A stretch of DNA of 64,000 nt, from the NCBI GenBank assembly GCA_018340375.1, contig JAFFJZ010000001.1, forward strand, positions 69,990,001 to 70,054,000, given 5' to 3'. This DNA is from Gonatopus flavifemur. Lineage: Eukaryota > Arthropoda > Insecta > Hymenoptera > Dryinidae. Of the stretch, positions 46,249-61,453 are shown in pieces; within the stretch, counting starts at the first letter, position 1, and every line of letters starts with the position of its first letter. The position numbers and the translations under genes were made by a program. Under the pieces are notes generated by a model, which searched no databases, was not told the DNA's origin, and was given only the letters and a program-made list of their open reading frames with translations.

Positions 46249-47534
46249 TTAGGTGTACAAATAAGTTTCCGCGGTTTGTCAAAAGATGGCCCCACCAGAA
46301 GGTTATGGAGAAATTGTCAGATGTAAAACGTAATATCCCAAGTTTAGTCATCTGGCAACACCATAACCTTAAAGTACTAGTGATTCCGTATCGGCATCAC
46401 GTAATTTTTTTCGTGCAAAAATGTCAAGTTTTATTCCGAATAAGCGTCATTTGCGGGAACTTTTGATTTACTTCTTTAATGTGAAAAAATCTGCAGCTGA
46501 GGCGCATCGATTGCTTCTAGAAGCATATGGTGAAGCTGCTTTAAGTGAGAGAAGTTGTCAGGAATGGTTTCAAAAGTTTAAGAACGGTGAGTTTGACGTT
46601 AAAGACAAAGAACGCAGTGGAAGGCCGAAAGTGTACGAAGACATGGAATTAGAAGTACTATTGGAGGAAGATTCGTCCCAAACGCAAAAAGAACTTGCAC
46701 TTACTCTACAAGTGACTCAACAAGCAATTTCACATCGTTTAAAATCGTTAGGATTGATTCAAAAACAAGGAAATTGGGTTCCATATGAACTAAAGCCGAG
46801 AGACGTTGAACGCCGATTATGCATGAGTAAAATGCTGCTTGCCAGGAATAAAAAAAAGAGTTTTTTGCATCGTATAGTCACTGGTGACGAAAAATGGATT
46901 CACTACGATAATCCAAAGAAGAGAAAGTCATGGGTTAAGCCCGGCGAACCATCAACATCGACAGCTAAGCCGAATATTCATGGAAAAAAACTCATGCTGT
47001 GTATTTGGTGGGATCAGCTTGGTGTCGTGTATTATGAATTGCTGAAACCAAGCGAAACCATTACTGGAGCTCTATACCGAACACAATTGATGAGATTGAG
47101 TCGGGCACTTAAGGAAAAACGCGCCCATTACTACTCCAGACACGACAAAATTATTCTTTTACACGATAATGCTCGTCCACATGTTGCGGCGCCGGTAAAA
47201 ACATACTTGGAAACACTCAACTGGGAAGTTTTACCCCACCCGCCGTATTCACCAGACTTAGCCCCTTCTGATTATCACCTGTTCCGGTCGATGGCACATG
47301 GTCTGTCTGAGCAGCGCTTCACATCATATGAAGACACCAAAAATTGGGTAGATTTGTGGATAGCGTCAAAAGATGAAGAGTTTTTTCGACGGGGTATCCG
47401 AATGTTGCCAGAAAGATGGGGAAAAGTAGTGGCAAATGATGGAAAATACTTTGAATAAAACGTAATGTACTTTTCCTTTACAATAAATTCCTAATTTTTT
47501 ATAAAAAACCGCGGAAACTTATTGGTACACCTAA
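46249..47534 (+). mobile_element. Complete mariner transposon (mauritiana/Mos1-like)
   Basis: TTAGGTGTAC(A)AATAAGTTTCCGCGG at 46249 onward is the inverse of the right end 47505-47534, with a single mismatch in about 30 bp. TA dinucleotides flank both sides (46247-46248, 47535-47536). The length, 1286 bp, equals that of Drosophila Mos1. It encodes one uninterrupted transposase. Near-identical ends plus an intact frame indicate a young, possibly still mobile copy. It inserted in a TATATA run. Confidence 0.92.
46421..47458 (+). CDS. Mariner transposase, intact
   Basis: A 345-residue protein, the same length as Mos1 transposase, which cuts the element out at its ends and inserts it at TA. Residues 1-110 form the paired-like DNA-binding region with two helix-turn-helix parts (for example SCQEWFQKFKNGEFDV at 45-60 and QTQKELALTLQVTQQAISHR at 87-106). 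The WVPYEL linker motif is at 119-124. The DDE catalytic core is complete: D156 in VTGDEKW, D249 in LLHDNARPH and D284 in YSPDLAPSDYHLF, the D,D34D spacing specific to mariner. It ends in DGKYFE. The ATG at 46421 opens MSSFIPNK, the conserved mariner start. There is no frameshift or stop; promoter and poly(A) signal were not identified beyond AATAAA at 47482. Confidence 0.95.
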   Translation: MSSFIPNKRHLRELLIYFFNVKKSAAEAHRLLLEAYGEAALSERSCQEWFQKFKNGEFDVKDKERSGRPKVYEDMELEVLLEEDSSQTQKELALTLQVTQQAISHRLKSLGLIQKQGNWVPYELKPRDVERRLCMSKMLLARNKKKSFLHRIVTGDEKWIHYDNPKKRKSWVKPGEPSTSTAKPNIHGKKLMLCIWWDQLGVVYYELLKPSETITGALYRTQLMRLSRALKEKRAHYYSRHDKIILLHDNARPHVAAPVKTYLETLNWEVLPHPPYSPDLAPSDYHLFRSMAHGLSEQRFTSYEDTKNWVDLWIASKDEEFFRRGIRMLPERWGKVVANDGKYFE

Positions 47535-59442: not shown

Positions 59443-59450
59443 TATAAATA
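59443..59450 (+). promoter_or_regulatory. TATA box of the candidate secreted-peptide gene
   Basis: TATAAATA. An initiator-like TTTAGTA about 30 bp downstream (59472-59478) would give a 5' leader of about 24 bases before the ATG at 59498. The ATG at 59450 lies between TATA box and start site, so it would not be transcribed. Confidence 0.45.
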
Positions 59451-59497
59451 TGAGATCGATTGTTGGAATTTTTAGTACGTTTTTCGTCAATTCAAAA

Positions 59498-61104
59498 ATG
59501 GCAATGCTTAAATTCTTATTCGTTCTCTTGCTAATCGCGATGTTGACTGTCAATATTCTTGCTTTGAGCCGCAAAGTGAACAGTCGTGGAGTGAGTATTC
59601 AATTTTTATTATCATACACGAACAATAAATATGATACTGCCCAAGGGAGAAAGATTTCGATAAAGCACATGAGTTCTGCAAAAGTTCATAGAAGATTCAA
59701 TCAAAATTCAAAGGATTTATTATGAATTCTTGAGAATTCTCGCGGGTGCAATAACTTTGCTTTTGTTTCGGAATTTTTATTAAATCGAAGTAGATTTGAT
59801 GGCAGTTGCAGTAAATTATACTTTCGCACACAGCACTCGTCGTCTAAAAGATATCTTCGGACATAATTGAGAACAATCCAAGAAGTTTTATGCAACATGA
59901 ATAGACATCTTTTAGAAGTCTTAAACTGTTCTTACTTCTAAAAGATATCTCCAAGAAGGTTTTCAGAAGACTTTCAGAATTTTCTAAAAGACACCCTTTC
60001 GGGAATTTTTAAAAAGTTTTTGAAAACGTTCTTGGAGATATCTTTTAGAAGTAAGAACAGTTTGAGACTTCTAAAAGATGTCTATTCATGTTGCATAAGA
60101 CTTCTTGCATTGTTCTTGATTATTTCTGAAGATATCTATTAAACAATGAGTGCTGTGTCCCAAATTGTATTCCAAATTGTGTTACATCCGACAAGTAATT
60201 TTTTCGTGTGTACTTTTCGAGAACTCTTTTCAAACTATTGTCGAGAAAACATGCTGTGTGGGAATTTTCCAATACGCTACACCCAGAAAACGCTATGCTT
60301 GGATTAAAGTGAATGATTCTTTCTATTGCTCCAAATATCACTACAGCTGTTGCAAGTACTATTCTATTTGGTACATGTGTAATATGCTTATTATAGGGAT
60401 AATTACACTTGATTCAAACATTGAATATACTCGATTCAAGCATAAGAACCCTCAATATCTCAAATCTGATATATTTTATCCTTGAATCAAGTGTAATTAT
60501 CCCTATGATAAGCATATTACACATGTACCAAACAGAATAGTACTTGAAACAGCTGTAGTGATATTTGAAGCAATAGAAAGAATCACTCACTTTAATCCAA
60601 GCATAGCGTTTTCTGGGTGTATGCAAGCTCATCGCTCGTACCAACAATCACCTAGAATTATTCCTATTAGGGATTGCAGTTGTTGAAAGATTGGCTTTTT
60701 TTCTCATTCACGCTGTTGAAAAAATTTGTGGAATTTAATACCCAAAATTTAAAAGTAATTAACATATTTATTTGTATTTCAAATTCACTATGCATTTTAT
60801 AAGAATTCAAACGAAATTTGATATGAGAAACATTTACGATAATATTGTGTTTCATTTCAATAACAGGATGGGAAATCTAATTCAAAAATATGTTGTGCTC
60901 GGTATTTTCAAACTTTTGTATTAAAGTTAACACAAATATTCCGGAATTTATGTCGGAAATTTTTAGCAGTGCAAAAAGTACCTCAAGAATAGATTGTCTT
61001 TCAAGCAATCTCATGATTACGTTCATCCGTTTTTTCAGAGAAGAGAGAATGCATACGCGCTATTGGGAGAGGCCTTGAGCGGCTTCTTCGGAAACCGTGG
61101 ATAA
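59498..61104 (+). CDS. Candidate secreted amidated-peptide precursor, two exons (59498-59590, 61039-61104)
   Basis: Exon 1 encodes 31 residues: MAMLKFLFVLLLIAML is a good hydrophobic signal peptide, with likely cleavage after NILA. It ends at a GTGAGT donor (59591). A TTTTTTCAG acceptor ends at 61038, and exon 2 is in the same phase (0), adding 21 residues to a stop at 61102-61104, 52 in total. Exon 2 starts with Arg-Arg, a convertase site, and ends SGFFGNRG-stop, so processing would release an 18-residue peptide ending in Arg-amide. FFGNR-amide fits the FxGxR-amide consensus of invertebrate tachykinin-related peptides, but those precursors usually hold several copies; here there is one. A neuropeptide, venom or salivary peptide is possible. 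The splice is inferred; without it the exon-1 frame runs on to 59725. Confidence 0.42.
59828..60158. mobile_element. 331-bp foldback in the candidate intron
   Basis: ACACAGCACTC at the left and GAGTGCTGTGT at the right. Arms of about 140 bp match strongly through ATGCAACATGAATAGACATC and TTACTTCTAAAAGATATCTCC. Shares phrases with 45916-48327. Confidence 0.7.
60278..60621. mobile_element. 344-bp near-perfect foldback MITE in the candidate intron
   Basis: TA CACCCAGAAAACGCTATGC at the left is inverted exactly at the right with TA flank. Arms of about 145 bp differ at only a handful of positions. The loop of about 50 bp is AT-rich. Little arm divergence implies recent insertion or conversion. 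Confidence 0.75.
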
Positions 61105-61262
61105 TGTAAGGTAATTCTTCATATCATACGTAATGGAATATTAAAAAAATGTGTTCTCTGTGACCGACGAATTGTAAATGAATGTTGAATTCCTTCACAA
61201 GCAAGCAAATAATAATTATGGCACACAATCTGCGTATGTCCTCTAATTCACGGAAAAAATAA

Positions 61263-61453
61263 CCCGAGTCGAAAAATTGGAACGGCTTTTGTCCTCATAT
61301 TTCATTTTTAGACTAATTTTGTCCTGATTGTTGAATAATGCGAATAAAATCATGGAAAAGTACTGTTTTCATCCCCAATATTCAACAATCAGGACAAAAT
61401 CAGTCTAAAAACGGAATACGAGTCCAAAAACCGTGAAAATTTTTCGACCCGGG
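61263..61453. mobile_element. Short (191 bp) CCCGAGTC-ended palindromic element
   Basis: CCCGAGTCGAAAAATTGG at the left, AATTTTTCGACCCGGG at the right. The interior pair TTTTGTCCTGATTGTTGAATA and its inverse makes most of the insert palindromic. It starts about 160 bp after the candidate peptide stop codon. Confidence 0.6.

Follow-up and report, generated by a model that had tools for sequence, protein, structure and literature searches.

Several peptide systems of the tachykinin (TK) type offer precedents for the locus considered here. Passages of PMC6880623 describe venom tachykinins of Ampulex compressa that act on the TK receptor of another arthropod, the excerpt of PMC9214539 describes a single orphan sialokinin gene, and a passage of PMC12962067 gives octopus tachykinins as examples of de novo birth. 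For natalisin, the sister system of TK, passages report absence in the honey bee (PMC4730192), presence in five Ichneumonoidea, Athalia and Camponotus (PMC5831470), and presence in four of eight braconids (PMC7596734). We analysed a window of 64,000 nucleotides (C1:69990001-70054000 of the 636-Mb assembly of Gonatopus flavifemur), which contains at 59498-61104 a candidate two-exon peptide gene. The explanation that we consider best, and hold with evenly balanced confidence, is a real, compact, lineage-restricted gene that would give rise to one secreted, amidated, TK-like receptor ligand.

Read from the window sequence, the gene model is complete, and its TATA box, signal-peptide exon, donor, acceptor and second exon with stop codon follow one another in order. 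A preliminary description of this DNA had named a TATA box, a signal-peptide exon, a phase-0 GTGAGT donor, an acceptor and a second exon, and each of them lies where it had been placed. The parts are as follows.

59443..59449, forward strand: TATA box TATAAAT, by direct reading
59472..59476, forward strand: initiator-like TTAGT, sequence checked, role putative; predicted transcription start near 59474, with a 5' untranslated region (UTR) of about 24 nt
59498..59590, forward strand: coding exon 1, 93 nt, 31 codons, phase 0, with the GTGAGT donor at 59591; C1:70049498 in the genome search
59498..59563, forward strand: signal peptide MAMLKFLFVLLLIAMLTVNILA, with a strong uncharged hydrophobic core; cleavage site placed by eye
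59591..61038, forward strand: predicted intron, 1448 nt, from GTGAGT to the acceptor TTTTTTCAG, which ends at 61038
61039..61104, forward strand: coding exon 2, 66 nt, 21 codons plus TAA; C1:70051039 in the genome search
61039..61044, forward strand: Arg-Arg, which with the Arg-Gly of exon 1 gives an RGRR site of furin type across the junction; cleavage predicted
61045..61098, forward strand: mature 18-residue peptide ENAYALLGEALSGFFGNR (predicted amide), calculated [M+H]+ 1927.97
61099..61104, forward strand: Gly as amidation donor and TAA stop, from the translation; the end reads SGFFGNRG-stop
61140..61145, forward strand: ATTAAA, a putative poly(A) signal 36 nt past the stop, followed by TGTGTT

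Translation across the junction gives a precursor of 52 residues, MAMLKFLFVLLLIAMLTVNILALSRKVNSRG from exon 1 joined to RRENAYALLGEALSGFFGNRG from exon 2, which consists of a 22-residue signal peptide (cut by eye), LSRKVNSRG, RR, the 18-residue peptide and a terminal Gly; the precursor proposed earlier, of the same length and with a signal peptide, an Arg-Arg site, an 18-residue peptide and a terminal Gly, is thereby confirmed. The splice joins Arg-Gly to Arg-Arg, so that RGRR stands immediately before the mature peptide, and we take this to be a furin-type site by the R-X-K/R-R consensus. In the mechanism that we propose, the signal peptide would be removed from a secreted preproprotein, a furin-type enzyme would cut after RGRR, a site that splicing completes, and conversion of the terminal Gly to an amide would follow, releasing one 18-residue peptide, ENAYALLGEALSGFFGNR-amide. 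This peptide would probably act as a ligand of G-protein-coupled receptors of the tachykinin type, either TK or natalisin receptors. We infer each of transcription, splicing, cleavage, amidation, receptor and tissue from the sequence.

The signals around the coding parts differ in weight. TATAAA[TA] occurs 54 times on the forward strand of the window, and the TATA box is weak evidence alone. It stands 31 nt from the A of TTAGT, which we presume to be an initiator by its consensus, and the start codon at 59498-59500 has the context AAAATGG. A second in-frame ATG, at 59450 directly after the TATA box, lies upstream of the likely transcription start near 59474. Exon 2 is GC-richer, as had been proposed (51.5% versus 31.6% in the intron), a value that 4.1% of 66-nt windows reach; the GC content of exon 1 (40.9%) is unremarkable and is reached by 22.9% of 93-nt windows.

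Splice-like signals and open frames can also meet in non-coding DNA by chance, with no gene present. We gauged this with simulated windows, 60 for single pieces and 1200, from an order-3 Markov model, for the full combination, in which a signal-peptide exon with a GTRAGT donor is spliced in phase to an acceptor so that the product has a dibasic site and ends in Gly. Single pieces are common: an FxGxRG-stop arises 0.033 times per simulated window (2 in 60), an acceptor-led frame with an FxxxRG end 0.117 times and a signal-peptide exon with donor 0.15 times. The 1200 windows held 225 signal-peptide exons with a donor and 8 donor-acceptor pairs with dibasic site and terminal Gly, or 0.0067 per 64 kb. 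Several points weigh against a gene. Over about 10,000 genome windows this rate predicts about 66 amidated models by chance; the scan settings were fixed only after the locus was found, and the locus itself had been picked post hoc; the frames scanned around it show mobile elements, with no host domain above threshold; and no homologue was found.

Because about 66 chance models are expected genome-wide, the case rests on the combination of the extra signals with the TK-like end. None of the 8 chance pairs ends in FxGxRG or FxxxRG, which puts TK- or natalisin-type ends at 0 in 1200 simulated windows. In 164 kb of real DNA (the window plus 50 kb on either side), the 59498-61104 gene is the sole model at three signal-peptide thresholds. 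The spacing of TATA box and initiator, the start context, the RGRR junction, the GC-rich second exon and the poly(A)-like site are concordant. On this sequence evidence we hold it highly probable that there is a gene, under whichever reading other than chance, and consider a chance assembly improbable; the reality of the gene is likely, short of certain.

The genome has a canonical TK gene elsewhere, on contig C110. The pattern GFQGMRGK occurs there at four places within 62.445-62.477 Mb (0 for the reversed control), and the frames around these places spell out a TK precursor of the usual multi-copy kind, with units such as APMGFQGMRG and APMGFHGMRG.

C110:62445105-62476858: canonical TK gene, motif exons over about 32 kb, located by pattern search and by reading of frames

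Its precursor contains 5 FxGxRG[KR] copies whole inside exons, or 7 with two that lie across inferred joins. A composite of its exons matches PF08262, the Pfam family of tachykinin-related peptides (TRPs; Lem_TRP), at 1.6e-9, and 395 proteins, of which 120 were listed. The best 30 of these 120 are mostly named tachykinin and, by their organism names, all belong to Hymenoptera. In a tree of 27 chosen matches, the C110 precursor falls with Hymenoptera, at no resolved position within Apocrita. The window gene, on C1, is separate from this canonical TK gene.

We compared the C-terminus of the window peptide with 990 FxGxRG[KR] copies from 120 TK precursors, those listed out of 395 matches; this set is biased towards relatives of the hymenopteran query. 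The peptide has a C-terminal FX1GX2R followed by a Gly donor (SGFFGNRG-stop, amide predicted). Its Phe at X1 is found in 120 of the 990 copies; the residue before the first Phe is Gly in 886 of them, and the residue before that is Ser in 181. SGFFGMR is present in the listed precursors, one residue away from SGFFGNR, and the closest terminus among them, RAPSGFFGMRG, is identical at 8 of 11 positions. Four of the last seven residues (G, F, G, R) are the TK core.

Other features weigh against a tachykinin in the strict sense. X2 is M in 726 copies, V in 177, T in 70, L in 11, S in 4 and I in 2; Asn, the residue of the window peptide, occurs in none of the 990, nor in 1000 FxGxRG copies counted whatever residue comes next. 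The precursor has one copy of the motif versus 2-12 in the 120 listed precursors, whose length was bounded by the search. Searched by shared 5-residue words, the precursor showed no homology to TK precursors outside the motif, and it has no match to PF08262 at E<=10; its sole Pfam row is a sub-threshold HemY_N (E 0.057). The intron is placed unlike those of the C110 gene, which by eye appear to split the motif between GFQ and GMRG. Of the earlier proposal of a tachykinin-like gene, the FxGxR end with Gly before Phe and Ser before Gly stands. Asn at X2 and the lack of a TRP match in Pfam make the peptide TK-like rather than a demonstrated tachykinin, and membership in the TK gene family is not supported by the sequence.

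These same observations bear on the idea that the peptide is real, secreted and amidated and that its TK-like end is a coincidence, as in an orphan peptide of a gland, of semen or of defence that has another target. The failure to find a homologue or a second copy, the very small size of the gene, with its TATA box and short predicted UTRs, and the Asn at X2 (0 of 990) are all in keeping with such a peptide, whereas the four TK-core residues and the single residue that separates SGFFGNR from a known TK end oppose coincidence. With a pI of 4.5 the mature peptide is acidic; its helical moment is 0.10 over its whole length and up to 0.35 in 11-residue windows, and the low whole-peptide moment and acidic charge speak against a cationic lytic peptide. 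We regard a coincidental end as rather unlikely. A cationic amphipathic lytic or antimicrobial peptide was considered separately and is rejected on the same pI and moments (0.35 or less in the 11-residue windows); since the peptide is acidic and weakly amphipathic, a receptor ligand is the better reading of it.

The Asn before Arg invites comparison with natalisins, where it is frequent, as in BmNTL3, DLRQENDPFWGNRa (a passage of PMC4730192). The window gene might be a reduced natalisin, that is, a single-copy remnant of the TK sister system that acts on the natalisin receptor. The peptide fits FxxxRamide, its amide being predicted, and natalisin is patchy and very variable across Hymenoptera in the passages of PMC5831470 and PMC7596734. 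A genome search with F[W/L/C/F][A/G]NRGK gave 1 match versus 3 in the control, hence no natalisin of that form, the one form searched. However, the window peptide has neither the Trp nor the Pro before Phe of FW- or PF-type natalisins, and the Gly in that place is what most TK copies carry (886 of 990). This Gly does not exclude a natalisin, since a mite natalisin ends in PGFVGARa, with Gly before Phe and the FxGxR form (passage of PMC4730192). Insect precursors in the papers are longer, at 251 residues in Habrobracon (PMC7596734, in part) and 438 residues with twelve peptides in Spodoptera, as excerpted, and the mite precursors hold two peptides. We took natalisin forms from PMC4730192, whose passages give no hymenopteran form; we looked for the FW or FxP form typical of an order and for several peptides in one precursor, and the window gene has FFGNR in a single copy. 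We judge a reduced natalisin quite unlikely, and the sequence makes it likely that the peptide would work like a ligand of the TK or the natalisin system.

Returning to a lineage-restricted gene, the precursor protein search of the 636-Mb genome gave 3 candidates, all of them scored: exon 1, exon 2 and a frame on C144. The C144 frame (E 0.3) was tried as a paralogue; it has no hydrophobic signal start and was taken as a chance match. No second copy was thus found by this search, which is the main basis for single-copy status, as the DNA search of the whole locus scored 40 of 2509 candidates; among those 40, the intron repeat alone was listed outside the locus, which is not proof of absence. 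The earlier portrayal of a tiny, single-copy gene for a secreted, amidated peptide with a tachykinin-like C-terminus is supported as a gene model. There are no convincing tandem relatives within 50 kb on either side, and the exons with their flanks share a single 17-nt match (E 0.35) with the other loci examined.

Among 5.8 billion proteins, no candidate of suitable length shared three 5-residue words with the precursor, which counts against the gene. The database is rich in hymenopteran neuropeptides, so this null is informative on close annotated relatives; it is weaker for diverged genes and for very small ones, which annotation often misses. The exon-2 peptide has no match in the PDB, and neither GFFGNR nor FFGNRG occurs in the searched literature library. 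The best reading of these sequence searches is that the gene is lineage-restricted.

What such a second gene would be for is a further question. It could be a gland product, released in venom or saliva, that acts at another animal's TK receptor, or it could serve the insect itself as an additional messenger. That the peptide would be a ligand of the TK-receptor type seems to us slightly better than an even proposition on its sequence. We slightly favour a gland product over an internal messenger, although the latter fits the sequence equally well; that such a product would target a different animal is a tentative proposal, which we hold to be less likely than not. The venom or saliva idea fits a hymenopteran, and the gene lies apart from the endogenous TK gene (C1 versus C110), as expected of an exocrine mimic. 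A similar guess of a gland role failed for the Varroa natalisin, which was transcribed in the nervous system and went undetected in the salivary gland (passage of PMC4730192), and this counsels against the gland reading. More speculative still is a newborn, single-copy hymenopteran gland peptide in which a TK end with a natalisin-type Asn could address a host's or prey's receptors for both TK and natalisin. Such a peptide would be the FxGxRamide counterpart of sialokinin and would have arisen independently of the animal's own TK gene.

If expressed, the gene would provide a second, single-copy TK-like ligand in a hymenopteran, and a clean case for studying the origin of receptor mimics that are not copies of the endogenous multi-copy gene. 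The FFGNR-amide terminus was found neither in the literature library searched nor in any of the 990 TK copies counted, and the Asn variant would test what separates TK from natalisin receptor selectivity.

The surrounding DNA contains the following elements.

59817..60169, forward strand: long inverted repeat in the intron, resembling a miniature inverted-repeat transposable element (MITE), 174-nt arms, 85%
60278..60621, forward strand: second long inverted repeat in the intron, 159-nt arms, 92%
61263-61453: further long inverted repeat (MITE-like hairpin)
46421-47458: Mos1-type mariner transposase, open frame of 345 residues
26837-28501, reverse strand: reverse transcriptase fragment, two of 119 frames matching RVT_1; placed by eye

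The two MITE-type repeats occupy about half of the intron. The one at 59817-60169 recurs at about 40 places genome-wide at 84-91% (40 scored of 2509 candidates), including three copies spaced 567 bp apart at C323:10520170-10521643. For protein domains we scanned 119 of the 127 stop-to-stop frames of at least 72 residues in the window, a range above shorter exons; of the 8 left out, six overlap one another near 24.3 and 41.8 kb, one lies within the intron repeat, and the last is the mariner, which was scanned separately. In the 100 kb of flanks, all 75 of 75 frames of at least 95 residues were scanned. No host protein domain reached threshold in these frames: the 119 window frames matched reverse transcriptase alone, and the flank frames gave mariner-type transposases; one flank frame resembled a sodium/calcium exchanger model below threshold (E 0.0041). 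The mariner is 96-99% identical to its nine best database matches, and 85% and 83% identical to a Euphydryas editha and a Formica fusca protein, and was probably active recently. The reverse transcriptase fragment probably derives from a non-LTR (long terminal repeat) retroelement. No transfer RNA was found, and no Rfam family reached its gathering score. The observed/expected CpG ratio is 1.00 over the whole window; CpG is not depleted, which suggests little germline methylation.

Taken together, the window gene can be placed against four known systems. With insect TRP/TK genes it has in common a secreted precursor, a basic cleavage site, a Gly for the amide and the (S)GFxGxR end, but it differs in its one copy, its 52 residues, its Asn at X2, its lack of a PF08262 match and its place on another contig; unlike in those genes, the peptide lies wholly inside one exon. 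It resembles natalisins in its FxxxRamide form and in the Asn that precedes Arg, for which FWGNRa is an example (passage of PMC4730192), and differs in having no Trp, no Pro before Phe, a single copy and a tiny precursor. The sialokinin of Aedes aegypti is of the vertebrate FxGLMamide type, whereas the window peptide would belong to the FxGxRamide type of invertebrates; sialokinin has known salivary expression, which for the window gene is a proposal. The venom tachykinins of Ampulex compressa are, like the window peptide, hymenopteran and of the FxGxRamide type (PMC6880623, in part), with a venom precursor that, as excerpted, carries multiple FQGMRa peptides, in contrast to the one FFGNRa copy predicted here.
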